Shown piece after piece: positions 28,418-64,000 of a stretch of 64,000 nt of DNA. This stretch comes from a bacterium (GTDB lineage Bacteria > Auribacterota > UBA3054). The stretch's first letter is position 1, and each line of letters begins with the position of its first letter. Under the pieces are notes generated by a model. The model was not told where the DNA came from and did no database searches. It worked only from the letters and a program-made list of their open reading frames with translations. Where the stretch lies: the NCBI GenBank assembly GCA_017557885.1, contig JAFYXV010000002.1:478088-542087 (forward strand), given 5' to 3'. The position numbers and the translations under genes are program-made.

Positions 28418-30559
28418 ATGAAGTGCCTTGTCTTTTTCGCCCCGGGCATGCACTGCGCCGGCTGCGCCTCCGCGATAAGCCGCCAGATAGGGAAGCTTCC
28501 CGGGATCGAGCGGACCGGCGTCGATCCCGTCAGCAAGCGCTGCCTCGTCTGTTACGACGAGACGCTGGTAAATGAAGAGGAGATCCTGGAAGCCTCCCGG
28601 AAAGCGGGCTTCCCTCCCACAAAGGAGCTTCCCTCCTCCCGAGACGATCAGAAAGACATTTTCAAAAACGCGCTTTTCCTCCTGGCCGTAATTTGCGCCG
28701 CGGCGCTCTTCCTGCTGGAATGGAACATCATCCCCCAGCCGGGCTCTCCCGGCCTCAGCGGGCTTCTTCAGCTTCTTCTGACCGTCCCCGCCCTTCTTTG
28801 GGGCGCGGATATTTATAAGGGCGCCTATCTGTCCATTCGCTACGCCCATCCCGACATGCAGCTTCTGGTGGGCCTTTCCACCGCCTCGGCTTTCCTCTAC
28901 AGTATTGCCGAGCTTTTGATGTACGCTTTCTCCTATACCGCCCATCCTCATTTTCATTTCTGCGCCAGCGCCATGATATTGGCCGTCGTGGGCTTGGGGA
29001 AAAAGCTGGAGGAAAGAGCCAAAAAGAAAGCCAACTCTTCCCTGGAAGAGCTCTCCGGACTTATCCCGCGGGAGGCCCACCTTTTAGAAAACGGCCTTGA
29101 GAAAAACATTCCCTCCGACCTTCTCCGGCCCGGCGATCTTGTTATTGTCAAACCCGGGGAGAGAGTCCCCGGCGACGGCCGGATCACGGAGGGACGCAGC
29201 GCCCTGGACGAATCGTTTTTAACGGGGGAAAGTTTGCCGGTGGACAAAGTACCCGGGGACGAGGTCAAAGGGGGCTCTATGAACCTCCAGGGAGCCTTCA
29301 CGCTCCTTTTGGAACGCTCCGGCAGCCAGACCGTCCTCGCGGAAATGATCAGGCTGGTGGAGGAGGCGCAGATGTCCAAGCCCCGCATCGCCAGGATAGC
29401 CGACCTGGTGGCCGGCCGCTTCTCTCTGGGAATAATCCTCTGCGCCCTCGCGACGCTTACTGTTTGGTGGATCCTTAAGGATTTCTCCACCGCCCTGCCC
29501 TACGCGCTCACGGTATTGGTGGTGGCCTGCCCCTGCGCCCTGGGATTGGCGACTCCCGCCGCCCTCTCCTGCGGGCTGGGCCGCGCCGCCAATCTCGGCA
29601 TTCTGTTTAAGGACGCCCTGGCTCTGGAGACGCTTTCCCGCTGCGACATCATCTTCTTTGACAAGACCGGGACGCTGACGGAGGGAAAGCCCGCCGTTTC
29701 CGGCTCCCCCGATCCGGAGGCGCTCCGGATCGCCGCCTCTTTGGAGCAGTATTCTGAGCATCCCCTGGCCAAGGCGGTATTGGAAAAAGCCCAAGAAGCC
29801 GGGCTGACTCCCGAGGAATGCCGGGACTTCAGCGCCGAATACGGCAAGGGCGTCCGCGCTTTCAGGCTTTCGGACGGCCAGGAGATGCTCTCGGGCAGCC
29901 CGGCGTTCCTCAGGGAAAACGGCGTTCCCCTGAAGGAGGACGAGCTGTCCTCCCTGACCAGCATCCACGTGGCTTTGGGGAAAAAATACCTGGGCGCGCT
30001 TTTAATTGCCGACGCCCCCAGGAAAGAGGCCACGGAAGTTATCGCGGACCTGAAAAAGCAAGGGCTAAGGTGCGTGCTTCTGACGGGGGACCGGGAGGCG
30101 GCCGCCAGGGAGTTCGCCAAAGAAGTTCCTCTTTCCGAAGTCGTCGCCTCCTGTCTGCCCGAAGAAAAGCTCAGGCTTGTCAAGGAAGCCCAGGCCAAGG
30201 GCCGCTTCGCGGCCATGACCGGCGACGGCGTGAACGACGCTCCCGCCCTGGCGCAAGCGGATGTTTCCATCTCCCACTACAAGGGCGCCGGCGCCGCCCA
30301 GCAGGCCGCCAAGATCCTTCTGACAAGAGACGACCTCAGGCTTATTCCCGCCGCCTTCAGGCTCAGCAGAAAAACGCTTCTTATTATCAAGGAAAATCTA
30401 TTCTGGGCCTTCATCTTCAACCTTGTCACGATCCCGCTGGCTGCCGGCCTTTTCACCATCTTCGGACTTCCCGGCATGCGTCCGGAAGTCGGCGCCGCGG
30501 CCATGGCCATAAGCTCACTTCTGGTGGTCGGCAATTCATTGCGCCTCAGAAAATCCTGA
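28418..30559 (+). CDS. copA: copper-exporting P1B-type ATPase
   Basis: Exports Cu(I)/Ag(I) from the cytoplasm with ATP. The 713 residues contain one N-terminal HMA domain (GMHCAGC, C13/C16), eight membrane segments, the actuator TGES near 269, the intramembrane metal site C371-P-C373 with the GLATPA follow-up, the phosphorylated D415 in DKTGT, the HP motif (SEHPLAKAV) and 'TGDGVNDAPAL' near 601. ATG 28418 is preferred over the TTG three bases earlier. Confidence 0.96.
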   Translation: MKCLVFFAPGMHCAGCASAISRQIGKLPGIERTGVDPVSKRCLVCYDETLVNEEEILEASRKAGFPPTKELPSSRDDQKDIFKNALFLLAVICAAALFLLEWNIIPQPGSPGLSGLLQLLLTVPALLWGADIYKGAYLSIRYAHPDMQLLVGLSTASAFLYSIAELLMYAFSYTAHPHFHFCASAMILAVVGLGKKLEERAKKKANSSLEELSGLIPREAHLLENGLEKNIPSDLLRPGDLVIVKPGERVPGDGRITEGRSALDESFLTGESLPVDKVPGDEVKGGSMNLQGAFTLLLERSGSQTVLAEMIRLVEEAQMSKPRIARIADLVAGRFSLGIILCALATLTVWWILKDFSTALPYALTVLVVACPCALGLATPAALSCGLGRAANLGILFKDALALETLSRCDIIFFDKTGTLTEGKPAVSGSPDPEALRIAASLEQYSEHPLAKAVLEKAQEAGLTPEECRDFSAEYGKGVRAFRLSDGQEMLSGSPAFLRENGVPLKEDELSSLTSIHVALGKKYLGALLIADAPRKEATEVIADLKKQGLRCVLLTGDREAAAREFAKEVPLSEVVASCLPEEKLRLVKEAQAKGRFAAMTGDGVNDAPALAQADVSISHYKGAGAAQQAAKILLTRDDLRLIPAAFRLSRKTLLIIKENLFWAFIFNLVTIPLAAGLFTIFGLPGMRPEVGAAAMAISSLLVVGNSLRLRKS

Positions 30560-50922: not shown

Positions 50923-51306
50923 TCACTTCGAACTTTTCACCGCCACGGTCTTCTTCGCCCGTGCACCGACATTCCTAGTCTTAGTCACCGTCACGGTCTT
51001 ATCCGCACCCCCCTTCTCCGAACCACTCCTCGCCAGCGTCAGCAGCAGCTTAAGCGGCCCCACATCCCGAGGCGTCCCAATCCCGCTCACCTTCCCCGCC
51101 GCATTCCGCACCAACACCACCGGCAGCACTTCCTCAAAAATGACCGCATGGAAAGCGTACAGCCCCCGATCGATCGCCATAGCCATCGCTTCAGGCCGCA
51201 TGCTCCACGCCCTACCGCCGTACGTACCTCCCAGCAAAACGATCGCATCCGGATCCTTCGCCTTCGGTCCAGCCAACTCAACCCACGACACTTCAATATC
51301 ACGCAT
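50923..51306 (-). CDS. small DUF3892-like protein
   Basis: A 127-residue protein. The pattern of residues 19-90 ('IVLLGGTYGGRAWSMRPEAM' then 'IDRGLYAFHAVI...LPVVLV', ending P.KLLLTL) fits DUF3892 proteins, short cytosolic proteins of unknown role that share 'IGG...G..W..s..eAi..IE.G...F'. The tail (95-127) is Lys/Thr/Val-rich and basic and might touch nucleic acid. A very strong AGGAGGT precedes the ATG. The gene lies at the border between the GC-rich core and the AT-rich island. Confidence 0.6.
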   Translation of the reverse strand: MRDIEVSWVELAGPKAKDPDAIVLLGGTYGGRAWSMRPEAMAMAIDRGLYAFHAVIFEEVLPVVLVRNAAGKVSGIGTPRDVGPLKLLLTLARSGSEKGGADKTVTVTKTRNVGARAKKTVAVKSSK

Positions 51307-51347
51307 AGTTACCTCCTACGGTAAATGATTACAAGTTCTATCTTTTT

Positions 51348-51360
51348 AACTAGCGACTAG
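51348..51360 (+). repeat. left copy of AACTAGCGACTAG flanking the TrlF-like gene
   Basis: AACTAGCGACTAG is identical to 54565-54577 on the other side of the TrlF-like gene. Similarity extends loosely about 15 bases upstream and 5 downstream. It could be a remnant of a cassette boundary. Confidence 0.6.
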
Positions 51361-51432
51361 CATTTCCGCTAGCTGTTAGCTTTTTCACTAGTCACTACCT
51401 ATTTTACTATACTTTGCAACCCGTTGCTATCA

Positions 51433-51455
51433 GTTGTAAAGTAATCCTTTACAAC
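51433..51455. promoter_or_regulatory. inverted repeat, operator-like
   Basis: GTTGTAAAG (51433-51441), TAATC, CTTTACAAC (51447-51455): perfect 9-base arms. It lies between divergent genes and could bind a dimeric regulator. Confidence 0.5.
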
Positions 51456-51465
51456 GCAGCGCCCC

Positions 51466-51546
51466 AACTTGGTCTCTTTTAGTCTTAGCTTGGTCCCTTT
51501 TTCGACTGAGCTTGGTCACCTTTGTCAACCGAACTTGGTCCCTTTT
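51466..51546 (+). repeat. four-copy CTTGGTCNCYTTT array
   Basis: Copies begin at 51466, 51487, 51509 and 51532 (steps 21, 22 and 23 bases); each reads (A/G)(A/G)CTTGGTCNCYTTT or very close. Near-helical spacing places them on one DNA face at two-turn steps. No gene uses them as coding sequence. Confidence 0.8.
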
Positions 51547-51775
51547 CCGCTAGCTTCTACTAATTTTGTTAGTCCATGCTATCAAGTTTACTAGATAGAA
51601 AGAACTATAAAACATATTCAATCTGTGATCATTCGTTTAGCATGTGATCAAAACGATAATCTTACATAAATTATACATGAGCCATCGTAAGTTATTTTTG
51701 TAACACATCACTGTTATAGATTACTCCGTTTAATGTTACACCACAGCATATGACATGTGCAAAATTTAAAAATCA

Positions 51776-51804
51776 TTGAAAAAGCAAAAGCGGTATGATA
51801 CAAT
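51776..51804 (+). promoter_or_regulatory. promoter for the TrlF-like gene
   Basis: TTGAAA (51776-51781), 17-base spacer, TACAAT (51799-51804). Confidence 0.65.
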
Positions 51805-51812
51805 GGCTTCAA

Positions 51813-51871
51813 TTATTTCAACCACTATAGGCGCTTAGGGTGCCGTGTGTTAGACGCAAGGACTGAAATAA
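51813..51871 (+). promoter_or_regulatory. 5' leader stem-loop abutting the ribosome binding site
   Basis: TTATTTCA (51813-51820) pairs with TGAAATAA (51864-51871). Inside, GGCGC (51830-51834) can pair with GTGCC (51840-51844). The 3' arm overlaps the first bases of AAGGAG (51870-51875), so folding could limit translation of the next gene. Confidence 0.5.
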
Positions 51872-51884
51872 GGAGACTTAGATT

Positions 51885-54458
51885 ATGTTTGAATCCGGTT
51901 TATCATACATAAAATCTGACTTCCATTTGCATACTCATAAAGACAAAGAGTTTATGTATTCTGGGGAACAGAATTCTTTTGTGGAAAATTATGTTTCTGG
52001 ACTTAAGAAGGAAGGTATAAATCTTGGTGTAATAACAAATCACAACAAGTTTGATAAAGATGAATACACAGCGATTCGCAAGGCTGCAAAAAAAGAGGAT
52101 ATTTTTATTCTTCCCGGCGTTGAACTTACTGTAAAAGAAGGATCTAACGGAGTCCATACGTTGATCGTATTTAATCCTGATGACTGGTTTTCGAATGGCG
52201 AAAATCATATTCAAACATTTTTGACGGCTGCTTTTGCAACCATTTCCAACCCGGAAAACCGAAATACAAAATGTATATATGATTTAAAAAACACTATAGA
52301 AGCACTTGAAGCGTATAACAGAGATTATTTTATTGTATTTGCCCATGTTGATCAGAATAGTGGATTATTCAGTGAATGTAGTGGAGGTCTGTTGGAATCA
52401 CTTTCAGGCATTGCGTCATTTAAAAAGCGTGTTTTGGGGCTTCAAAAAGCAACAACACAGAAGAACATAGAACAGTTTCGCAGAATTTTTGGTTATCTTC
52501 CTGCCTTAGTTGAGGGATCTGATCCAAAGTCCATTGAAGATATTGGAAAAGGTAGCAAGCATACTTATCTCAAAATCGGAGAATTTTCTTATTCGGCCGT
52601 TAAATTTGCCCTGCAGGACAGCAGTAACAGACTATTCAATGCCATGCCTAATATAAAACATGGGTATATAGAATCACTTGTTTTTCAAGGCGGTAAGTTT
52701 GATGGACAGAAAATCTTGTTTTCGCCTGAATTGAATACGTTAATCGGAATCAGAGGTAGTGGAAAATCAGCAGTAATAGAAGTAATTCGTTATATTCTTG
52801 GCCTAGACCCTCAGACAGATAATGAATATAAAGAATCTCTAGTAAAAAGCGTTCTTGGTTCTGGCGGAAAAGGTTCATTATCTGTTGTCGATAAACATGG
52901 TAAAAGATATATCATAAGTCGTATTTTAGGCGAGCGAACCAGTGTGGTAGACGAAGATAAAAATGATCTGAATATTACCCCATTAAGCATATTTGATGGG
53001 GTGCAATACTTCGGTCAAAAAGACCTTTCTAATAGTGCTGACCACGAAAATGGCCTTCTTGAAAAACTGGTAAGTAGAAAACTCGGTCAACAGGCAACGG
53101 TTGATAGCTGCATAGCTGAATTATGTGATGCTGTTGATCATCTTTTGGATGTCAATAAGATTCCTGGACAAATTGAAGAAGCAAATACTAGGAAGTCAGA
53201 AATTGAACACAAAATGTCCATTTTCAAAGATAAGGGAGTTGCAGAAAAGCTTAAAAAGCAGGCGGCATATATTACTGATCAGACCAAACTGGATTCGGTA
53301 AAAACAGAGGTTGCACACATAGTCAAGGCAATTAAAAGCGCTTATGACGGTCATAACGAGGCCTCTTCCAAATTATCAGAATACGAGAGTTCTTATAATA
53401 CCGAGTTGATTACCGAGGCAAAAAAAGTTTTAGCTCTTATAGATCAGCAACTTGAGGCCATAAGAAACGCTATTCAGCAGATGCAGATTCAGGAAAGGTT
53501 TTTTGAGGATATTATTGAAAAGCTTAATTCGGAAGTGACGGCATTAGCAGATGAATTTGCTGAAATAAAACGTGAGATAAAAGACGAAACCCTTGATGCG
53601 GATACGTTTGTACAACTGACCGCAAATACTGAGAAAGTTAAAGATAAACTTCAACAACTGACTGAAAAGTCCAAGAAAAAGTCGGCTATTGAAAATGTCT
53701 ACAAAAAAGCAGAACGTCAACGGAATGATATTCTTTTAAATTCATTCCAAGCTTATCAATTTGAGATAGAAAGAATAAATCAAATTCAAAGTGAACTCCA
53801 CATTGTTATAGAATCTAAAGGAGACAAGGAAGGCTTAAAAACCAGACTGAAGAGCGATTTTAGAGGAACGGGAATCAGCGATACAAAGTATCAGGCACTA
53901 AGCGATAATTTTACTGATTATGTTGACTTGATAGCGGATTGGATTTTAGCAGATGGATTGAAAATGAAAAGTGTTTTGACTGACAGTGAGTATAGTAAAT
54001 TGGAGGAAAAACTCAGAGAACAATATACCGAATTACTCAAATATCAGGTACAGAATAAAGTGGAAATATATTATCACAATAAACTTCTCAAACAACACTC
54101 TATTGGCCAACGCGCGTCGGCTCTAATACTTTTTATCCTAACACAGGATAATAATGATGTGATTTTTATAGACCAGCCGGAAGATGACCTGGATAATAAA
54201 GTGATTTATGACGAGGTGATTAGTGCAATAACTAAGAAAAAGCCCAATATTCAGTTTGTTTTTGCGACTCATAATGCGAATATTCCAGTGCTTGGTGATG
54301 CAGATAGAATACTTGTAGTAGATTACCAAGACACAAGGATAGATGTCTCTCAAGGAAATATAGATCTAGGCGACACACATAAACAGATTGTTGATATTAT
54401 GGAAGGTGGAAAAGATGCCTTTGAAAGAAGGCATCTTATCTACGAATCATGGAGGTAA
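51885..54458 (+). CDS. TrlF-like PHP phosphoesterase + SMC/RecN-type ATPase
   Basis: An 857-residue protein. An N-terminal PHP domain has the metal motif D12-x-H14-x-H16, 'ITNHNKFD', 'PGVELTV' and 'FAHVD'. An ABC/SMC-type ATPase follows: Walker A 'GIRGSGKS' at 288-295, a coiled-coil arm (about 395-690), signature S739-IGQR, Walker B 'VIFIDQPEDDLD' near 760-770 and an H-loop 'FATHN' near 793. This PHP-plus-ATPase order is that of TrlF-family proteins. An ATP-gated nuclease or phosphoesterase role in defence is inferred from the architecture and the adjacent restriction-modification and FRG genes. It is AT-rich, with AAGGAG upstream. Confidence 0.85.
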   Translation: MFESGLSYIKSDFHLHTHKDKEFMYSGEQNSFVENYVSGLKKEGINLGVITNHNKFDKDEYTAIRKAAKKEDIFILPGVELTVKEGSNGVHTLIVFNPDDWFSNGENHIQTFLTAAFATISNPENRNTKCIYDLKNTIEALEAYNRDYFIVFAHVDQNSGLFSECSGGLLESLSGIASFKKRVLGLQKATTQKNIEQFRRIFGYLPALVEGSDPKSIEDIGKGSKHTYLKIGEFSYSAVKFALQDSSNRLFNAMPNIKHGYIESLVFQGGKFDGQKILFSPELNTLIGIRGSGKSAVIEVIRYILGLDPQTDNEYKESLVKSVLGSGGKGSLSVVDKHGKRYIISRILGERTSVVDEDKNDLNITPLSIFDGVQYFGQKDLSNSADHENGLLEKLVSRKLGQQATVDSCIAELCDAVDHLLDVNKIPGQIEEANTRKSEIEHKMSIFKDKGVAEKLKKQAAYITDQTKLDSVKTEVAHIVKAIKSAYDGHNEASSKLSEYESSYNTELITEAKKVLALIDQQLEAIRNAIQQMQIQERFFEDIIEKLNSEVTALADEFAEIKREIKDETLDADTFVQLTANTEKVKDKLQQLTEKSKKKSAIENVYKKAERQRNDILLNSFQAYQFEIERINQIQSELHIVIESKGDKEGLKTRLKSDFRGTGISDTKYQALSDNFTDYVDLIADWILADGLKMKSVLTDSEYSKLEEKLREQYTELLKYQVQNKVEIYYHNKLLKQHSIGQRASALILFILTQDNNDVIFIDQPEDDLDNKVIYDEVISAITKKKPNIQFVFATHNANIPVLGDADRILVVDYQDTRIDVSQGNIDLGDTHKQIVDIMEGGKDAFERRHLIYESWR

Positions 54459-54564
54459 TACATCGGTTTGCCAACATTAAGCGATTACCATGTGTGTCAG
54501 TACTTGTTTTAAGTACTCATAAATTTTTCGTATTGATTGTTTAAAGTTAAAACTCTTCCTATTC

Positions 54565-54577
54565 AACTAGCGACTAG
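54565..54577 (+). repeat. right copy of AACTAGCGACTAG
   Basis: Identical to 51348-51360. It lies in the 173-base gap between the convergent TrlF-like and DUF262 genes. Confidence 0.6.
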
Positions 54578-54631
54578 TATTTTTGATTGTTACTATTATT
54601 TTTTTATGATTTTAGCAAATTAGCTTCTAAC

Positions 54632-56452
54632 CTAAAGTGATTCATAATACTTTCTGATTTTTTTGGCCATTAAAACTCGGCGTTCTTCTAAAAACTCTTT
54701 GTAATGAGTATGATCCATTTCAAAAACCTCTAATGGGACGCAATTGGTTTGCAAATTAGCAATTAATTGGTCGTAGTTTGTAATGGAGCCTATTTTTATT
54801 TCACCGGTTTCGCATTGTTTTTTTGCTTCAGAGAAGTAAACATGAGGTGCCAATTTTCCTATAGCTTTATTAATCTGTGTATCAAGGAAAGCATAATTGC
54901 CCTCTTGGTTGTACATTGATTTTTCATATCCATTTGATTTCAGATATTCTTTTGGAAAAATATGATGTACATCACCATTTTCAATAAGCTCTCTTACAAG
55001 AATATTATTAGATAACAATGATACGTCATTCATTGAAACTTGTGCAGCAAGAAAAACTAAATAAGTCGGATTAATAGTGGATGTGGCATCAAGATCTTGC
55101 ACAACTTTAGTATTCCAAAAATTATCAGAAATTTCTGCTGCCTCAATATCCTTGAGGGTTGATACGCCCCCTTTTTCACTAATCAAACGAATATCTTTTG
55201 CAAAAACAGATTCGGGAGAACCACTATAACGTCCAGTTAAAACAGAAAGGACATACCATTTTTGCACCAAACGCTTTACTTCACTAACAGGGACCTCGCC
55301 TGATTGTATTAAACGTAGATATAAGGTGTACGCAAAGTCTAGTGCCATCTTTGAATTCACTAATTTTTTTGAAACAAATCCGGCACTACGTATAGCAAGC
55401 ATGAACTGTTTGAAATTATACTCATTAAAAACATTTAAAACTCCTTTTTTTAATAGGCCGTATGTTTCAGATACGATTTCTTCCTTATATTCTCGAGTAT
55501 TAAAATCTCTACCAGAAAGCAAACTTACTAATTCGGAAAGTTTGGCTCTTGGAAACATATGCATGAATGCAACTCTGATAACATCATTATAATCTGGATC
55601 AAAGACATCTTCTGTTTCGTCTTTTAGCCAAGTTATTTTGTCAAAATATTCTGTGTTAGTAAATGCTTGATCTTCTTGTAAAATTGTTTCGTGGAAAGAA
55701 GGTATTTTAGATAAATGCGAATAGTAATCTATAGCCTTGCGTAGATTATTACCATCATACTTTTCATCAGAGGCGATTTTTGACATTACAAAATCGCCTT
55801 GACTTAACGAAGTTCCTTTAGAATTTATACGAATAAAGATATCTGTTACAACATCGATGCTCAACTTATCATCTAATTCTATAACTCCTATTGTACGATT
55901 TTCGATAGCTCTAAGTTTGGTTATTATTTTGTCTAGCTTATTTTTCTCCATTTCAGGATTGTTTTTGCAATATTCTTCAATAAAAGAATACACAGAGAAA
56001 TCGTTTTTAAATATTTCTGCTATGTCAGCAATCCAACGCTTGCTTCTAATGTGGCTTGAATCTTGAACCGCAAATATTTCACTATCTGGATCATTAGAAA
56101 AAGCTTCGAAAGGATTAAAAGCAATTTTGATCCTTTCTTTGGAATAGTTATTGTTTACTATAGGTATTCCAGAAATTGCTGTCATTAATGCAGTCACTCG
56201 CTGTTGACCGTCTATTAATATTTTTTTGCCAGAAGAAATCCCGCCGTTCCTAAGACGAATATCAGGATTCTTCCAAGTAATTAAGTACCCCGTTGGAAAA
56301 CCTTTATAAAGAGAATCCAATAAATCCCTAACTTGTGTCTTTCTCCACACAAATGGTCGTTGAATTTCTGGAACAGCAATATCTCCACCAGCTATATAAC
56401 CAAGAATAGTGCTAATTTGTGTTGATATTGTTCTATATTTTTCGATTTCCAT
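54632..56452 (-). CDS. DUF262 + HNH nuclease protein (GmrSD/SspE-like)
   Basis: A 606-residue protein. The N-terminal DUF262 (ParB/sulfiredoxin-like NTPase) has 'IQRPFVW' at 30-36 and 'DGQQRVTAL' at 81-89. A long helical middle is followed by a C-terminal HNH motif, with H496-H497 and N515/N519 in 'GNYAFLDTQINKAIG'. The same order is found in modification-sensing restriction proteins (GmrSD, SspE, BrxU). It is encoded 47 bases after the S subunit in the same direction, so it is probably co-expressed with the methylase and may restrict DNA according to modification state. The substrate is unknown. Confidence 0.88.
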   Translation of the reverse strand: MEIEKYRTISTQISTILGYIAGGDIAVPEIQRPFVWRKTQVRDLLDSLYKGFPTGYLITWKNPDIRLRNGGISSGKKILIDGQQRVTALMTAISGIPIVNNNYSKERIKIAFNPFEAFSNDPDSEIFAVQDSSHIRSKRWIADIAEIFKNDFSVYSFIEEYCKNNPEMEKNKLDKIITKLRAIENRTIGVIELDDKLSIDVVTDIFIRINSKGTSLSQGDFVMSKIASDEKYDGNNLRKAIDYYSHLSKIPSFHETILQEDQAFTNTEYFDKITWLKDETEDVFDPDYNDVIRVAFMHMFPRAKLSELVSLLSGRDFNTREYKEEIVSETYGLLKKGVLNVFNEYNFKQFMLAIRSAGFVSKKLVNSKMALDFAYTLYLRLIQSGEVPVSEVKRLVQKWYVLSVLTGRYSGSPESVFAKDIRLISEKGGVSTLKDIEAAEISDNFWNTKVVQDLDATSTINPTYLVFLAAQVSMNDVSLLSNNILVRELIENGDVHHIFPKEYLKSNGYEKSMYNQEGNYAFLDTQINKAIGKLAPHVYFSEAKKQCETGEIKIGSITNYDQLIANLQTNCVPLEVFEMDHTHYKEFLEERRVLMAKKIRKYYESL

Positions 56453-56499
56453 TATCTTTCATTACTCCTAAATGCTTTTATGATAAAAATACCCCACCT

Positions 56500-57642
56500 T
56501 TAGACTTTCGTTTTCTTATTATTTCTAACAATTACTTTTTTGATGTTAGAAATTTTTCTTTCCGCGTAAAGAACAATATCTTTAATTACAATTTTCTGAA
56601 CTGCAGAGATTAGTGTTTCCATTTTCTTATAGTCTGGTTTTCCGCGTTTCGTGAGCAAAGAAATATCAAGAGCATCTGCATCTTTAGCGTAGAAGTTGTG
56701 ACCATAATCGAATTTACCGGTATGAGCCGCTTTATGGCAAGCGGAAGTTACAAATATAGCAGCCTTTGTTGGAATTTTTTCCGTATGCACTACTGCAATG
56801 TGATCATCTCCTCCATATTTATAATTGCGATACTTGGCCGATCCAAACATATCAATAGTTGTTGTGTTCTTACTAAAAATTTCAACTTTATTGTCAATAA
56901 AAGCTGATACACCTTCCTCTGATTCTCCTGCTGTTACAAATGGTAAATCACCTGGAATGCGGTCTTCACTTTTTAGACGTTTCCCGCGTGTGGATTCACC
57001 ATACAAATCCTTTAGATTAAAAATGCCCCATCTATCACTCTTATAAGCAGCAATCGCTTGTTCCTCCTCTATGGACAATTTATAATTGTCCAAGCTACTC
57101 ACTTTCAAGTAAGCTTCTAATTCCGCAACCCTCTCGGCTTCTAATTCCGCAACCCTCTCGGCTTCTAATTCCGCAACATATTTGCTCATAAAATCAAAAT
57201 CTATTGTTCCATCTGTATTTATTGGAAGAAAGATGGATTGAGACTTGATTTTCTCCCAAGTACACATGGTATCATAACCAAACTCGTAGTGGATGAAATT
57301 AAGTGAACTTGCTATAAAGAGGCCAGTTTTATAAGATAGACTAAATTTAGGAATAAGTGAAAAAACTCTTGCATGTGTAACCATCTTGTATTCTTCATTA
57401 CGATAAAAGGCATTTCCAAACATATCAATGGTTATCGTGCCAGCAGGGAAAATCCTTGCTGAAATGTCTGTTTGTCCGAGAATTCCATAATTGGCCACTC
57501 CCGCTGTTATAACCGGTGTCCCTTTTCCGTTGATATGCCTTTTTTGTATGTCGAAGTTTCCACTACAACTATCAAATAGATTTTCAATTTTAAAATTGCC
57601 CCACTTAACAGCTTTTAACTTTCTGTTAAGTGAGGCCGTCAT
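56500..57642 (-). CDS. hsdS: restriction-modification specificity (S) subunit
   Basis: A 380-residue protein made of two target-recognition halves. Half 1 contains 'TITIDMFGNAFYRNEEYKMV' and half 2 'TTIDMFGSAKYRNYKYGG', showing that the halves are homologous. They are joined by a coiled-coil spacer with tandem VAELEAER units (about 155-178). It directs the methylase/nuclease to a bipartite DNA sequence. Its ATG overlaps the stop of the M gene (ATGA). The S subunit size fits BcgI-B-like proteins as well as type I S proteins. Confidence 0.9.
   Translation of the reverse strand: MTASLNRKLKAVKWGNFKIENLFDSCSGNFDIQKRHINGKGTPVITAGVANYGILGQTDISARIFPAGTITIDMFGNAFYRNEEYKMVTHARVFSLIPKFSLSYKTGLFIASSLNFIHYEFGYDTMCTWEKIKSQSIFLPINTDGTIDFDFMSKYVAELEAERVAELEAERVAELEAYLKVSSLDNYKLSIEEEQAIAAYKSDRWGIFNLKDLYGESTRGKRLKSEDRIPGDLPFVTAGESEEGVSAFIDNKVEIFSKNTTTIDMFGSAKYRNYKYGGDDHIAVVHTEKIPTKAAIFVTSACHKAAHTGKFDYGHNFYAKDADALDISLLTKRGKPDYKKMETLISAVQKIVIKDIVLYAERKISNIKKVIVRNNKKTKV
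57113..57177 (-). repeat. 24-bp tandem repeat in the S-subunit spacer
   Basis: Unit GCTTCTAATTCCGCAACC.. (24 bp) at 57113-57136 and 57137-57160, identical, and a partial third copy 57161-57177. It encodes VAELEAER repeats in frame, so gain or loss of a unit changes spacer length by eight residues. Confidence 0.9.
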
Positions 57643-59681
57643 TTTCCCAAGCGTTCATCTCCAACTTGCTGGTTCCTTAATAAGCGAGCAACTTCCCACG
57701 CGAGATAATCACCGACAGTTTTCTTTAAATCATCCAAAGTTGGTCTTATATCAACAGGTGCTGTTTGGTTCCAATCTGCCCCGTTTCCGGGATCTATGTG
57801 TCCTTCGTAATAATCTTTTTCTGAAAGAAAACACAATTTGCTTTTCCCAAATCGAACAAGATTAACTAGTTCATTATATCTATCTTTAGCATGGTCTATA
57901 TCTCTCAAATTAACACGTGCTTTTTTTCGATTCGTTCTTGAATAGCCGTCGTTAGAGAAATCGATAAATTTTACTATGTCGTCTTTTTGATGTGCCTCTC
58001 CAACTCGGAATACGTATACATATGTCTGCACACTTGACTTGCCTAGAAATAGATCTATAGGCATTTTTATACTAGCAATCAGCGTACTGTGTTTTAAAAT
58101 ACTTTTGTTATATTCTTTTGCTTTTCCACTACCGGCAGAATTTTGAATAATTATTGCAGCAAAGCCTTTATTCATCATAGAGAGGGCTTTTTCAACGAAT
58201 ATCATGCCATTCCCAGGAGCTGAATATGGAGGATTTAGGACAAAAGCATTTGCAGGGAATTTTCCTTTTCTCCCAAAACCATATTTACCGTCAAACTCTA
58301 TTAATGAGTCTTTGTTTATTATATTTGAGCTACCGTCTCCCATTAGTATCATGTTGAGGATAGCGAGCATGTAAACTTCTGAAAGGATTTCCAATCCCAA
58401 AATTTGATTTGCTTTTATTTCGGCGGACTTTACGGCCAACTTATCGGGTGATTTGATTTTTTCCTTGGCGTCTTTGAGCATTTCATTCATAGAAGCAACA
58501 AGAAGCCCAGCAGAACCGGTAGCAAAGTCCCACACATAAGAGTCCATATTGACTCTTGCCAAACGAGCAAGGAGCGTGGCTACATAGGACGGAGTCAGGA
58601 CAACATCATTAAGTTTGTCCTGAGAAAAACCAAGCCAGCTATACATTTCATTAAACAATTTACCGGTAAAATCTGTGCTAAGGCCAATTTTATAGTATAT
58701 TCCCAAATCGTCGATTATTTTTGTAAACACTCTTTTAAGCTGGCTTTCTCCATTTTTGGCCTTATTGATATTATCTGTAGTCAGAGTGTTTTGTAATGTT
58801 CTGAAAATCAAATCCTTTTTTTCCTTCGGCAATTTCTTTTCATTTAAAAATGCATTTATTTTGCGCAGAATAATATCTCCATCGCGATTGCCTTCTTCCT
58901 TGGAGGATTTTAAATCCGCTTTTTCAAGAGCTTCCACTTTCCCGGGAACTCCAAGTGTTGCAATAATTGAAGCGGCGACTAGATAAACACGATCACGCTC
59001 GCTCAACCCTTTTTCGTTTTGATAAATATCATTATTTATTTTAACAAGACTTGCTTTAATCTCCTGTTCGCGGGCTTCTCTAAGTTTCTCAATTTCTGAT
59101 TGCGTTAATTTTAATTGTTTAACTTTTTCTATGAATTTATCAAAACTGTTCTTTTTCAAAAAAGAAAAATCATCGTAATCATCTATTTTTTGGCCCATGC
59201 CGAAATTGCTTTTGGAGACATAATAAACTCCTATATCATATTTAAGATTCCCGATATCGTCCTTATAGCCGGTCATACCAATTGCTATGATTTCTGTATA
59301 ACTTGTATAATGAAGAATTGCGTTTGCATAATGAACAGCACCATTAACAGCATAAGAATTAATCGTTTTATAATCGGGTTGATTTTTGGCTGTTTTATTG
59401 GCAACTTTCCCGTCAGTATCAACTTTTACTAGCTTATCTTTGTATCCTTTATATTCAACAAGAACTGGATATTTACATAGGTTTTTATCCTGCAAAAGAA
59501 GTTTTGCATCTGGACGGTTTCCTCCCTCACCGCCGTTTTTAGACGCATAATCATTGAGGGCTCGATCTATTTCTGTGTTTAGTGATTCCTGCTCAAGCTT
59601 ATAATCTAGTTTATAAGTTTTAAGCCATCCATTGCCTAGCTGGGCAATTAATGGTTCTACAGATTGTACTTTTTTGACCAT
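57639..59681 (-). CDS. N6-adenine DNA methyltransferase with nuclease-like N-terminus (BcgI-like type IIB RM)
   Basis: A 680-residue protein. The N-terminal domain carries P57-D58 and E76-Y-K78 ('PVLVEYKG') with the spacing of a PD-(D/E)xK nuclease. A helical linker follows, then the HsdM-type methylase: motif I 'DFATGSAGLL' near 385 and catalytic NPPY near 481. No hsdR exists nearby, so cutting would rest on this chain, as in BcgI-like enzymes where one polypeptide carries R and M and a separate subunit carries S. GGGAG precedes the ATG. If the N-terminus is inactive, the pair would be a solitary methylase. Confidence 0.85.
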   Translation of the reverse strand: MVKKVQSVEPLIAQLGNGWLKTYKLDYKLEQESLNTEIDRALNDYASKNGGEGGNRPDAKLLLQDKNLCKYPVLVEYKGYKDKLVKVDTDGKVANKTAKNQPDYKTINSYAVNGAVHYANAILHYTSYTEIIAIGMTGYKDDIGNLKYDIGVYYVSKSNFGMGQKIDDYDDFSFLKKNSFDKFIEKVKQLKLTQSEIEKLREAREQEIKASLVKINNDIYQNEKGLSERDRVYLVAASIIATLGVPGKVEALEKADLKSSKEEGNRDGDIILRKINAFLNEKKLPKEKKDLIFRTLQNTLTTDNINKAKNGESQLKRVFTKIIDDLGIYYKIGLSTDFTGKLFNEMYSWLGFSQDKLNDVVLTPSYVATLLARLARVNMDSYVWDFATGSAGLLVASMNEMLKDAKEKIKSPDKLAVKSAEIKANQILGLEILSEVYMLAILNMILMGDGSSNIINKDSLIEFDGKYGFGRKGKFPANAFVLNPPYSAPGNGMIFVEKALSMMNKGFAAIIIQNSAGSGKAKEYNKSILKHSTLIASIKMPIDLFLGKSSVQTYVYVFRVGEAHQKDDIVKFIDFSNDGYSRTNRKKARVNLRDIDHAKDRYNELVNLVRFGKSKLCFLSEKDYYEGHIDPGNGADWNQTAPVDIRPTLDDLKKTVGDYLAWEVARLLRNQQVGDERLGK

Positions 59682-59885
59682 TGTACTCCCTCAATTTCGA
59701 TATTTGACAAAAAACATAAACTTGTTATTTGCCACGTTATCTTTGTTAATAATTGAGACAGCATTCTTAAAGAAAAACTGCACCAATATCTATCAATTTC
59801 AGTGTATTTTATCAAATTTAGGTTCATAATGGAACTGTATTTGGTGTCATAAAATCCCGACAATTAAAGGTGTTCTAGCAGCGAT

Positions 59886-59921
59886 GCTAGTAAAACCAAT
59901 GAACATTACTATCAAAATTTG
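59886..59921 (+). repeat. dispersed CTAG-repeat copy in the RM/FRG gap
   Basis: GCTAGTAAAACCAATGAACA.. resembles 61963-61998 (about three quarters identical by eye) and more weakly 62094-62130. It lies in the 251-base gap between the RM genes and the FRG gene, which otherwise shows only AT-rich sequence. Confidence 0.5.
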
Positions 59922-59932
59922 TTGAGTACTTA

Positions 59933-61744
59933 TTATGAAAGATCTATGTCAGCATAATTTGCTATCAATGGGTTGTCGTAAGAAGAAAGCTGAGGAAATA
60001 CAACAGTTATCCCTTTTTTATCAAATATCTCTTTGTCGTATTCCGAATCGTCGCCATTATATAATTCTTGGAGAACAGATTCGTCAATACTTTTTGTTGA
60101 TTTTTCTTTTCTTCTTAAAACCGTTAAAGTAACGGCTTCACAATTTGAGAATTGTTTCCAAAAATCCTCGATTGACTTTATTCCTAAAACAATATCTCCG
60201 ACTTTTAGTTCGGAGTGTTTTTCCGCAAATTTACTAAGATGTTTTATAACTTGTTTGTTCCCTTTCTGTTCTAAAACTAGTGGTTGCAAATGGTCTAGTT
60301 CTTGACATAAAACAGAAGAGGTGTTTTCTAATTCTGGATAAATAAAACTATCAGAAATTCCTAGTCTTGCCAAATCCATTAAAATGTTGTTTTTTTTGCC
60401 TTCTTCAACTTCAATAAAATCAAAAAACAAAAACGATTCATCTCTCCATATAAATCTTTTAAAAATATCAAGAACATAAAAATCAGACAATGCTTTTTTT
60501 ATAGCAAAATAATGTTTGCTTGTTTGCATTCCTGAATGAGTGTTTGAAGTGATCATCTGAATGTCGGTCTGAAGAGATGAAATAATTTTGGACTGTTTAA
60601 TAGTTATCTGTTTAGACAAGTTACTTCTTTTACTGCTGCCGAAGGAGATTAAACGGAAATCATTCTCTATTTTTCTAATTTCATCTAGAACATCTTGCTC
60701 TAGTGGTAACTTATAAATGATAGAGTTTTCTATTGCTGTCCTATCTCTGTCTTGTGGTTTAAGGAAGAGCAACCTAAAGCATTCTTCATATCCTTTTAAG
60801 TCTGATAATGGCAACATATAATTTTTGTCTAATAAATACCCAAAAAGTAAAAAAGCACTACTTTGATTTGATATTCTCCAATTATTGTTTTTTGGCTTTA
60901 CACATATAATTTGAGCCATATCGACTAAAGAAAATTCAGAAGCATAATAACCACTATCCCTTCGGGATTTTAAGAGCAATTCTTTTGTAATTGGGTTCGT
61001 TTTTGATATCTGCGTAGCTTCGTTTAATATTTTTCTCCTATTAGCGGTATCGGGTTCTAGAGCATATTCTTCATATTTTTTGGAAAAATTTGACATGTTG
61101 TTATGAAAATTGTTTTCATAATATGCCGTACTATCTATTGTTGCCACGTTTGCCAACAAAGCTGTGTTGCTATCATCAGGGAACCTAATGGCTCTTTCAG
61201 AAATAAAAAAACAATACAATTTACCATTATGTTTATTAATTGAACTTTTTGCTGCAAAGTACAATGCAATTAGAGGGTTTTCGGTTACATCAAGTAACCT
61301 TGTTGGCACTCTATAGTGTTGCATTTTGGCCAATTTTTCAAATGTGGTTTTACAATCAGTAAATGCTTCTGGGCATCTATTGATAGCTTCGTAATAAAAT
61401 TTGTGTTCATTAATTATTCTGCCGTTTCGATAAATTGATGGTTCCAATTTATATGTGTTATCATCTTCGCCTCTAAAGAACAACTTGAATTTATTGCCAA
61501 AGGGCATTACTTCATTTATCTTATCTAACAACTCCACTTTTTCTTTAAACCAAGAATAAAAACTTTCGATTGAATTAATTTCTCTATTGGTTTTTTCGTC
61601 AGTTTTTTCAGAATTGTTAATAGCCTCAAACGAACTATTATTCAAAAGATCAGACGCGTTTTTTGATTGCTTGTCGAAAGATGCGCTATCATTTTTAACG
61701 TCTTTGGCAGGACCTGTTAGAATCGGTTGTTCTGTCTCTATCAT
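59933..61744 (-). CDS. FRG-domain protein
   Basis: A 603-residue protein. A low-complexity N-terminus (1-55) is followed by the FRG domain: F90-R91-G92-E93, 'YKLEPSIYRNGR' and the closing block 'LAKMQHYRVPTRLLDVTENP' (Q142-H143, TRLLD 148-152) and 'LIALYFAAKS'. The remaining about 430 residues have no match; near residue 500 'GDIVLGIKSIEDFWK' resembles a PDZ-like strand-helix piece. FRG proteins are often found in prophages and defence islands, and their activity is not settled. It lies upstream of the RM operon in the same direction. A TATAAT sits at 61776-61771 (minus). Confidence 0.88.
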   Translation of the reverse strand: MIETEQPILTGPAKDVKNDSASFDKQSKNASDLLNNSSFEAINNSEKTDEKTNREINSIESFYSWFKEKVELLDKINEVMPFGNKFKLFFRGEDDNTYKLEPSIYRNGRIINEHKFYYEAINRCPEAFTDCKTTFEKLAKMQHYRVPTRLLDVTENPLIALYFAAKSSINKHNGKLYCFFISERAIRFPDDSNTALLANVATIDSTAYYENNFHNNMSNFSKKYEEYALEPDTANRRKILNEATQISKTNPITKELLLKSRRDSGYYASEFSLVDMAQIICVKPKNNNWRISNQSSAFLLFGYLLDKNYMLPLSDLKGYEECFRLLFLKPQDRDRTAIENSIIYKLPLEQDVLDEIRKIENDFRLISFGSSKRSNLSKQITIKQSKIISSLQTDIQMITSNTHSGMQTSKHYFAIKKALSDFYVLDIFKRFIWRDESFLFFDFIEVEEGKKNNILMDLARLGISDSFIYPELENTSSVLCQELDHLQPLVLEQKGNKQVIKHLSKFAEKHSELKVGDIVLGIKSIEDFWKQFSNCEAVTLTVLRRKEKSTKSIDESVLQELYNGDDSEYDKEIFDKKGITVVFPQLSSYDNPLIANYADIDLS

Positions 61745-62192
61745 AACTGCTCTTGCTTGATGTTAACAAAATTATATAAATTTATCTGTATTTTATCATT
61801 TCTTGCTTAGAATGTGAACAATAATATATGTCATAAAATAGTGACATCAAGTGACTTCATAAAACTTAGCTACAAGGAGCAAACCACAGAAAATGATAGT
61901 GCACTATATATTTTGCTAGTGTTATCTTGCACTATGAAAAGCAGTGGCGTAATTGGAGAAATACTAGTAAAATCAGTGTACCTCACTATTGAAATTGGTG
62001 TAATGCTAGTGGTGTTGATAGCATGCTAGCGAAAGGGCTAGCGCACTAGCATGATTGGTAGCGCGCTACGAAAAGCAGTGGCGTAGAGTCTGAAAAGCTA
62101 GCAAAATCAGTGTAATACTAGCTGAATTGCTAGCGCGCTAGGAAAGGCGGTAGTGCGCTAGTAAAAAGGGTAGAAAAGGTATGGTTGGTTTG
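61745..62192. other. 448-base gene-free CTAG-rich repeat region
   Basis: No supportable gene. From 61900 to 62170 there are about eleven CTAG tetramers, mostly as GCTAGC/GCTAGT/ACTAG. Two 45-base degenerate direct repeats begin GAAAAGCAGTGGCGTA and end AAAATCAGTGTA (61936-61980 and 62068-62112). The FRG promoter lies at the left end. Confidence 0.75.
61936..62112 (+). repeat. pair of 45-base direct repeats
   Basis: Copies at 61936-61980 and 62068-62112 (132-base step), sharing GAAAAGCAGTGGCGTA, CTAG and AAAATCAGTGTA. The preceding TGCACTATGAAAA of copy 1 recurs at 63561-63573. Confidence 0.75.
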
Positions 62193-63488
62193 TTAAAGTC
62201 CCAACATCTCTTTAGCTTCTTCGTGACCTTGTTCAGCAGCTTTCTTTAGCCAAAATGTTGCTTGTTCTGGATCAGGATCTACTCCTTTGCCGTAATAATA
62301 AGCAAGGCCCAGGGCGAATTGTGCACTGGCATAGCCTTGCTCAGCGGATTTTGTGAACCATTCTACGGCTGTTTTATCGTCGCCAATCGAATCATAGTAC
62401 ACTCCCAAGCCGTACTGGGCCATGCTGTTTCCATCTTCTGCGGCGTCAGTAAAAAATTCTTTAGCTTTATCGAGATCTTGCGGTACTCCTTTTCCGACCA
62501 AATAGCAAGCGCCTAGATTATACTTTCCAAAAGAGTCGCCAAGATATGCCGCTTTGGTGAACCATTCAATGGCTTTTATATCGTCGTTCAATTTAGTATA
62601 AAATTTTCCTAAAGCATTTTGGGCGCCAGAAAGTCCCTGTTCCGCCGCTTTTGTGTACCATTCCATGGCTTTATCGTAATCTTGCGGTACGCCGTTTCCA
62701 TTTTCATAACAATCCCCGAGGGCATACGCTGCGTTCAAATTGCCCTGGCTTGCGGCTTTGGAAAACAACTCCACGGCCTTTTTGAAATCTTGCGGTACGC
62801 CTTTGCCGAAATAATAAAAATTAGCTAATGAGACCTGTGCGTTCGATTCGCCTTGTTCTGCTGCTTTGGTGTAGTATTCTATAGCTTTTTCGTAATTTTG
62901 CGGGACTCCTAGACCCAATTCGTATTTTAGTCCTAAAATATATTGTGCTTCATCATCTCCTTTATTTGCAGCATTAATAAAATATTCCGTAGATTTGGTG
63001 TACAATTCGTCTGCTTTTTTAGAATCTTGTGGTACACCAAGCCCCTTTTCATAACAATAGCCTAAATCGTGCTGTGATCTAGCGGATCCTTTTTCTGCTC
63101 CTTTTTTAAAGTATTCAACAGCTTTTTCGTAATCTTTTGGCATACCAATCCCCGATAAATAAAAAAAGCCGAGATGATCATAGGCAGAAGCGTCTTCTTG
63201 CTCGGCCGCCTTTGAAAACAAATCAAAAGCCTTCTCGAGATTTTGAGAAACACCTCTTCCGAACTTATAACATATAGCTAAATTATATATGGCCGGAGCG
63301 TATCCTTTTTGGGCAGCCTTTTCAAAATAGTTAAAAGCTAAATTGTCATCAACTGATTTAAGCCCGAGCTGATTGTATCGTTCCGGAGTGTTATTGATGA
63401 AGCGCAAAAATAAAAACGTACACACGATCATTACCGAGATAATGATAAGTACGACTATTATGTTTTTTGATGATGCGTTGGTTTTCAT
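62193..63488 (-). CDS. membrane-anchored Sel1-repeat protein
   Basis: A 431-residue protein with one N-terminal membrane anchor (about 10-30), then about eleven Sel1-like TPR repeats of 36 residues with the pattern 'A.YNLG.CY..G.GVPQD..KA.E.(Y/F)..AAEQG...AQ'. These repeats form a solenoid for protein-protein contact. The repeats are very alike, so copy number may vary. It is a low-GC gene at the island's right end and has its own -10 element. No direct link to the restriction genes is shown. Confidence 0.93.
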   Translation of the reverse strand: MKTNASSKNIIVVLIIISVMIVCTFLFLRFINNTPERYNQLGLKSVDDNLAFNYFEKAAQKGYAPAIYNLAICYKFGRGVSQNLEKAFDLFSKAAEQEDASAYDHLGFFYLSGIGMPKDYEKAVEYFKKGAEKGSARSQHDLGYCYEKGLGVPQDSKKADELYTKSTEYFINAANKGDDEAQYILGLKYELGLGVPQNYEKAIEYYTKAAEQGESNAQVSLANFYYFGKGVPQDFKKAVELFSKAASQGNLNAAYALGDCYENGNGVPQDYDKAMEWYTKAAEQGLSGAQNALGKFYTKLNDDIKAIEWFTKAAYLGDSFGKYNLGACYLVGKGVPQDLDKAKEFFTDAAEDGNSMAQYGLGVYYDSIGDDKTAVEWFTKSAEQGYASAQFALGLAYYYGKGVDPDPEQATFWLKKAAEQGHEEAKEMLGL

Positions 63489-63711: not shown

Positions 63712-64000
63712 TCAACTTAAGTAAGTTAGAAAGCTTTTTTTCTTTTTTTCTGATAAAACGTGCCCAGCTTCGCGGAAAAACGCGGAAAGGTTAGTGTCCG
63801 TAAGAAGGATCATAGCTTTGTTTTTGCCTAACCAGCGGGTCGCTCCGTCAAGGGGAGCTTCGTCCAGGGACCTTACGCATGCCAGGGCTACTCCGGCCTC
63901 TGCGCAGCTCTTGCGCAGGGCTATCATCTTTCTTTGCGAAAGCCTTTGTTTTTTGATGGCTCGGTAAGGAGCTAAAACGTTTTGAAAAGCTTTAGCGGAA
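63712..64000 (-). pseudogene. degenerate ImmA/IrrE-type metallopeptidase fragment (HigA-like), 5' end outside window
   Basis: Open from the window edge; about 95 residues are visible. 'LDGATRWLGKNKAMILLT' and 'FFREAGHVLSEKKKK' match the COG2856/ImmA-IrrE pattern '..GA.RWL...kalI.Ls....... FFHEaGH'. The HExxH first His is Arg here, about six residues before it are missing, and the chain stops after an A-rich tract where frameshift is easy, without the usual C-terminal part. It is probably a decayed antitoxin-plus-peptidase gene. A short, inactive but used protein cannot be excluded. Confidence 0.55.

Follow-up and report, generated by a model that had tools for sequence, protein, structure and literature searches.

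The question raised by this locus is whether five neighboring genes encode one defence machine or several defences gathered at one place. The genes lie in an A+T-rich block of a bacterial contig (Auribacterota, lineage UBA3054; GenBank assembly GCA_017557885.1, contig JAFYXV010000002.1) and encode a TrlF-family protein, a DUF262-HNH protein, the specificity (S) and methyltransferase (M) subunits of a BcgI-like restriction-modification (RM) enzyme, and a protein with an FRG domain. The window, i.e., the whole stretch of 64,000 nucleotides that was analysed, terminates where contig 1 of this 2.24-Mb, 13-contig assembly terminates. A sequence-only reading had proposed that the block is a four-part defence system with a joint function. 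Because a close relative has unrelated defence-like genes in the same slot, we consider it very probable, judging from the sequences, that the block is a swappable collection of separate defences in a hotspot, and not one machine.

The left flank was searched in eight genomes of the genus, the present one included, and matches were found in six of them. The slot was reached only in two sister genomes, G035 and G033; the contig of G039 stops short, the match in G034 is partial, and the match in G038 is a relative of the gene at the left edge of the slot, which we call the anchor gene. In G035, the homology on the left is 94.8% up to window position 51354 (position 30315 of its contig C158) and then stops. 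On the right, window positions 61963-63488 correspond to C158 48978-50513 with 89% identity, and both order and strand are preserved. Between these common flanks G035 holds 18.7 kb, compared with 10.6 kb in the present genome, and the two gene sets are unrelated. The G035 cargo consists of a PDC-S33 RelA/SpoT protein, a protein without a family, a DruE-like helicase, GajB, GajA, a giant type IIG enzyme and a DrmD-like SNF2 helicase. In G033, the left flank is 79.9% identical up to position 51371 and is followed by RhuM (PDC-S05), PDC-M36A, and a CBASS cyclase with a 2TM effector; this contig ends after the edge of a type I S gene. Hence, both flanks in G035 and the left flank in G033 border unrelated cargo of defence families, which is the pattern taken here to define a hotspot. 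Since the slot of the sister carries other systems (GajA/GajB), it appears to collect unrelated ones. The features of the block are collected in Table 1.

Table 1. Features of the slot and its surroundings (window positions).
Feature	Positions	Strand	Description
Anchor gene	50923..51306	-	127 amino acids; left slot edge; kept in two sisters; no Pfam family
Exchangeable cargo, 10.6 kb	51355..61962		Differs from sister G035; flanks about 95% (left) and 89% (right) identical
TrlF-family gene	51885..54458	+	857 amino acids; HLHT, Walker A, DQPE and ATHN motifs; NF045780
DUF262-HNH gene, GmrSD/BrxU-like	54632..56452	-	606 amino acids; QRPF, DGQQR, FxxxN, HH...N...N
S specificity subunit	56500..57642	-	380 amino acids; two target-recognition domains
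24-bp tandem repeat in S	57113..57177	-	2.7 copies, 100% match; three VAELEAER linker units
M, fused nuclease/N6-adenine methyltransferase, BcgI-A-like	57639..59681	-	680 amino acids; PD-X17-EYK, DFATGSAG, NPPY
Dyad TGTCGGGATTTTATGACA	59845..59862	-	Upstream of M
FRG-domain gene	59933..61744	-	603 amino acids; PADLOC candidate family PDC-S15; C-terminal half without family match
Leader	61736..61847	-	71% common with unrelated sister operon, start codon included; dyad TGTCACTATTTTATGACA at 61829-61846
Right flank with Sel1-repeat gene	61963..63488	-	89% identical to G035

All five open reading frames (ORFs) of the block are intact and of full length. An ORF check confirmed the genes and coordinates of the sequence-only reading together with its 4-bp overlap coupling M to S and its 47-bp gap between S and DUF262; M and FRG are 251 bp apart, and TrlF is convergent with DUF262 across a gap of 173 bp. 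The family names that it had given to the parts were right according to family profile matches. Its picture of an A+T-rich block in a G+C-rich chromosome was borne out as well: the G+C contents of the block genes are 0.316-0.365, while most 2-kb windows before about 50 kb have 0.52-0.62, with a single dip to 0.48. No tRNA or known RNA was found at the slot edges. CTAG-rich short repeats occur at both cargo edges and in the gap between TrlF and DUF262 (51337-51594, 54554-54582 and 61929-62161).

If the parts formed one system, the four families would be expected to occur together elsewhere. Relatives of the DUF262 gene were examined at 81 loci, consisting of the best 80 of 441 in species genomes (50-76% identical) and one viral contig. 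The flanks reached at least 3.3 kb upstream at 57 of the 81 loci, 5.4 kb upstream at 49, 2.8 kb downstream at 66, and both outer limits at 43. S, FRG and TrlF were found at none of the 81 loci at E ≤ 1e-5, 43 of which had flanks long enough for every partner, and M gave only three matches, of 22-27 bits. The same kind of search recovers all genes at the window's own locus. None of 12 DUF262-bearing genomes had M at E ≤ 1e-20, with the present genome as the sole positive control. Ten other M loci were also examined (L086-L093, L114 and L115), and neither DUF262 nor TrlF was near M at any of them; L086 has no upstream flank, L088 has about 0.6 kb after S, and the record of L091 is circular, with S running across its start. 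At one of the ten, L115 (8676-11468), which belongs to another phylum, an FRG-family gene follows S by 70 bp. The M of L115 consists of the C-terminal part only, and the gene after S is FRG there and DUF262 here.

Plasmid records, searched with differing E-value limits, gave 234 matches for TrlF, 285 for FRG (none covering 80%), 18 for DUF262 and 12 for M. On four plasmids that were examined, carrying TrlF (Listeria, E. coli), a DUF262 relative (Selenomonas) or an FRG-domain gene (Parabacteroides), the other modules were not neighbors according to the annotation, which is incomplete there. Independent occurrence, which the sequence-only reading had named as evidence against its joint system, was therefore found for each module in the loci that were read. 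The four-part unit stands as one physical block between conserved flanks; a joint function is unsupported, because the modules occur independently.

RM genes of several kinds occur near DUF262 relatives. In a crude motif test, genes resembling N6-methyltransferases lay within 2.5 kb at 13 of the 81 loci, R-like helicase genes at 15, and either at 25. The density of RM genes was highest within this distance, and R-like genes rose slightly again beyond 7.5 kb. Among the 76 upstream and 78 downstream neighbors compared with Pfam, MmeI-like, type ISP and type I families were the commonest, each with at most six.

Several explanations of the block can be weighed against these results. We consider it improbable that FRG, M, S and DUF262 are one leftward operon in which DUF262, and possibly FRG, are dedicated companions of the BcgI-like enzyme, serving as a backup for modified DNA or as suicide upon failed restriction, with TrlF separate. 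The common strand, the M/S overlap, the short gap between S and DUF262, the identical dyad upstream of FRG and M, the closeness of DUF262 relatives to RM genes and the M-S-FRG neighborhood at L115 all speak for such an arrangement. However, at none of the 81 loci is DUF262 partnered by this M, the RM genes there being of other types (MmeI-like, type ISP, type I), neither companion is seen at nine of the ten other M loci, and the long gap between FRG and M contains a dyad of its own. A single system with a joint mechanism of all four parts is very improbable. It would explain why the four parts are the exact content of one exchanged block, but no second genome with the set was found among the DUF262 and M loci, and the slot gathers unrelated systems, as the GajA/GajB genes of the sister indicate. 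That the block is a decayed island of neutral DNA seems hardly credible: the DNA is A+T-rich and probably acquired horizontally, yet the five ORFs are of full length and have kept their family motifs.

We therefore prefer the reading of a collection of separate modules, in which the five genes at positions 51355-61962, between flanks shared with G035, would act against phages as separate modules. Several points weigh against it. Support for the right boundary comes from a single sister, and the contig stops where the window does. The flanks of 38 of the 81 DUF262 loci and of some M loci (L086, L088) are too short to show every partner. L115 has the order M-S-FRG, and here the dyad TGTCR...YGACA stands before FRG as well as before M, so FRG may be co-regulated with M-S. 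Finally, the enzymatic assignment of FRG given below comes from one paper (PMC9503650), and the FRG structure model is too poor to serve as a test. The sequences themselves show the gene families and their order, the conserved flanks, the replaced cargo and the independent occurrence; the biochemical activities of the five genes, and any protection against phages, we infer. With the preferred reading, a suggestive four-part system becomes a mapped defence hotspot with cargo borders, which argues for testing the modules singly. The cargo itself is ordinary in kind for a hotspot, and the findings worth testing are a leader shared between unrelated cargos and pairs of S proteins that differ by one linker unit.

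The shared leader lies upstream of the FRG start. Positions 61736-61847 are 71% identical (E 6e-6) to the stretch before the DrmD-like gene that opens the G035 cargo, and the match spans a -10-like element, TGATAAAAT, the start codon and two further codons. The alignment score was 57; the 500 shuffles scored 18.7 on average and 31 at most. The dyad in the leader reads TGTCACTATTTTATGACA in the present genome and TGTCGCGATTTTGCGACA in G035, with both arms altered together. The general pattern, TGTCRNNATTTTRYGACA, is found before M (59845-59862), before FRG (61829-61846) and before the unrelated cargo of the sister. Its expectation in the window at two mismatches or fewer is 0.07, and the reversed pattern had no match in the eight genomes.

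The present genome has four exact copies of the dyad, two of them in the block. The copy on contig C4 follows an ADP-ribosylglycohydrolase gene, about 15 bp after its stop, as it does in G035, and the copy on contig C7 lies between two divergent trypsin-Sel1 genes. An exact copy in genome G037 precedes a Sel1 gene that adjoins an A+T-rich stretch. At one mismatch or fewer, each of the eight genus genomes has at least one copy; among the one-mismatch sites, the C9 copy of the present genome alone was inspected. A defence-only operator is thus a possible role of the dyad but not an established one, and its regulator may be general or related to conflict. The exact dyad of G037 is separated by about 1-5 kb from the A+T-rich stretch (L176 1515-5079), where a restriction gene of the NgoFVII type and a Panacea antitoxin are encoded.

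These observations allow a tentative proposal, to which we give a minor chance: the slot may be a fixed immune expression site, in which a resident leader at the right edge (promoter, dyad and start codon) and the anchor gene at the left stay in place while whole, unrelated defence operons are swapped behind the start codon by recombination. Against this, the leader (71% identity) is less conserved than the flanks (89-95%), and it may move together with the cargos instead. The words promoter, swap and exchange are absent from a paper on E. coli defence islands (PMC10121019). If the leader is resident, the host would control a defence operon as soon as it arrives, and more hotspots might be found with the leader as a probe.

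The M-S module matched known RM families. M gave a near full-length match to the PADLOC type IIG RM family (PDLC03616, 792 bits), and S matched type II specificity subunits (259 bits), with two Methylase_S stretches for its two recognition domains. The sequence-only reading had pointed out that the module has no separate restriction (R) subunit. This is correct, but it is not unusual: M is a nuclease fused to a gamma N6-methyltransferase, and since the nuclease motif within M (from residue 57) accounts for the missing R gene, we rejected the absence as an oddity. M scored 30.7 bits against the MADS methyltransferase MAD2 (NF047738), under the cut-off of 720. According to PMC3874165 and PMC9159934, BcgI-like enzymes combine an RM fusion with S, and PMC11997821 gives E73, D90, E105 and K107 as the catalytic residues of BsaXI; by motif spacing, D58, E76 and K78 of M are candidate counterparts. 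M and S are thus predicted from sequence to form a BcgI-like type IIB enzyme, (RM)2S, which would methylate a bipartite site and cut unmethylated copies on both sides. M is rare, since the present copy is alone among 44 genomes of the phylum and only two of 398 genomes of another phylum have one. M-S is also found in the coliphage PhiR12_3 and in lactobacillus plasmids, and at L114 it stands amid genes that look like housekeeping genes by eye. In a viral contig (L089 9992-12038), a BcgI-like M is split over three reading frames, by decay or by assembly error.

The perfect 24-bp repeat in the S gene encodes three 8-amino-acid linker units between the recognition domains. By motif count among the 120 S relatives listed of 5678 matches, two units are present in 65 and three in 34, and 21 are ambiguous. 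Thirteen pairs among these 120 have all aligned residues identical with one 8-amino-acid unit missing in one partner, and they fall in three families: IAELEAER (with named members from Microcystis), SQLEACRL and IRELEEER. The unit is the sole difference in seven of the 13 pairs, representing all three families, and the other six also differ in end length. Because most pairs come from metagenome assemblies, repeat collapse in assembly is a possible source of them. Three and two linker units also occur in Microcystis contigs of 5.1 Mb and 4.9 Mb, respectively. For an S gene of type I, variation in the number of repeats has reportedly been published (PMC8836594).

In EcoR124I/II, two or three 4-amino-acid units set a gap of 6 or 7 bp, according to PMC3874165 and PMC9159934, and linker deletions in the half subunit of BsaXI left the gap unchanged. 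Possibly, the number of repeats switches the recognition gap in type IIB enzymes. No S-linker repeats in type IIB enzymes were found in the literature searched, the coverage of which was partial and included sections of PMC3874165, PMC9159934 and PMC11997821. The S pairs are a ready set for asking whether the type IIB recognition gap follows repeat number, as in EcoR124I/II.

The DUF262-HNH protein matched GmrSD_N (DUF262) with 109 bits (cut-off 33). Its QR motif is at residue 31, DGQQR at residue 81 and FxxxN at residue 206. H496, H497, N519 and N528 are kept by all 18 relatives that were aligned, each at least 72% identical, and there was no Pfam match to DUF1524. The best PDB match by sequence was BrxU (7p9k, 4.3e-9). 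The structure model is weak (mean predicted local distance difference test score, pLDDT, 54.7), and its sole fold match in PDB at E ≤ 1e-3 was again BrxU 7p9k (6.8e-7), with about 16% identity over the fold alignment. Full-length metagenome relatives are 72-78% identical (120 listed, the present protein included, of 8000 scored).

The protein may be a GmrSD/BrxU-like nucleotide-gated nuclease against modified phage DNA, that is, against phages escaping M-S. DUF262-type enzymes (RloF, TgvAB, BrxU) are described as complementary beside type I RM or BREX in PMC4619093 and PMC11411939. The adjacency of DUF262 and RM genes agrees with published GmrSD homologues, RloF and TgvAB, and therefore a layer complementary to M-S is plausible by analogy, with an interchangeable partner. 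The sequence-only reading had tied a second, modification-dependent layer to the methylase; such a layer is plausible as published for type I RM and BREX, but not specific to this M. A literature search joining DUF262 and BcgI gave only a review with BcgI in its reference list.

TrlF matched its curated family, NF045780, with 513.7 bits (cut-off 350) and scored 161.4 bits against Ppl (NF042955), under the cut-off of 1000. The N-terminal HLHT motif is of the PHP type, and an SMC-like ATPase has its Walker A at residue 288, the DQPE Walker B from residue 760 and ATHN at residue 794. This combination suggests a sensor-nuclease that is probably complete in itself. In the phylum, TrlF was found in two of 43 genomes, the present one and one at 28%.

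The FRG protein matched Pfam FRG with 67.9 bits (cut-off 25) and PDC-S15 with 224 bits. In the phylum, four of 43 genomes had a match, three of them besides the present one and in the FRG domain only. Among 22 matches from 7995 candidates, the protein was covered by at least 90% in eight (the present protein included) and by 63% in one more. FRG is described as a member of the ADP-ribosyltransferase (ART) superfamily, and possibly as an effector that consumes nicotinamide adenine dinucleotide (NAD), in PMC9503650, and by analogy the protein is probably an NAD-consuming abortive effector with an ADP-ribosyltransferase fold. Its structure model had a mean pLDDT of 59, low through much of the FRG region, and no PDB match at E ≤ 1e-3. 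No viral contigs carrying FRG or TrlF were found.

A paralogue of the anchor gene lies at a second slot, on contig 7 of the present genome, where ShosT and ShosA genes (47.5 and 215 bits; L112 5683-7639) directly precede it. In G035, the same gap (L113 4219-7236) holds a 567-amino-acid HEC-07-like protein and a 178-amino-acid protein instead, with flanks that are 92.7% and 97.6% identical between the two genomes. Further, weaker copies of the anchor family (40-47%) are present on these contigs in both genomes. The anchor gene may be DUF3892-like. As a universal defence marker it was rejected by the copy in G038, directly upstream of which are a type II secretion G-like protein and a gene without a family match. 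At the contig end of the window, positions 63712-63999 hold an incomplete ORF without a Pfam match; a stretch near it matches, with 77% identity, one next to a small sister gene that looks like a helix-turn-helix antitoxin by eye.

Each part of the locus can be compared with a known system. The slot resembles the core defence hotspots cDHS1 and cDHS2 of Pseudomonas aeruginosa, in which fixed flanking genes enclose strain-dependent systems (PMC10250203), in its constant flanks and varying defence cargo. It differs in that it is from another bacterium and is known from few genomes, and in that two unrelated cargos share a promoter-like leader through the start codon. TrlF belongs to a curated family that, to judge from its name, is named after the trlF gene in the temperature restriction locus of Photorhabdus (PMC7554251). 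It differs from the latter in being flanked by the anchor gene and DUF262; on the two plasmids examined, no trlR- or trlG-like products were annotated beside trlF. The FRG protein shares the N-terminal FRG domain of the PDC-S15 candidates in PADLOC and is unlike the others in its long, rare C-terminal half (residues about 310-603). The DUF262-HNH protein shares the DUF262 motifs, the HH..N..N region and neighboring methylase genes with the type IV enzymes GmrSD, BrxU, RloF and TgvAB, as described in PMC4619093, PMC12707154 and PMC11411939, whereas it adjoins a BcgI-like locus and not a type I or BREX locus. M-S is like the type IIB enzymes BcgI and BsaXI in its fused nuclease-methyltransferase, its separate two-domain S and its lack of a separate R, and unlike them in that the S linker consists of three 8-amino-acid units encoded by a perfect 24-bp DNA repeat.

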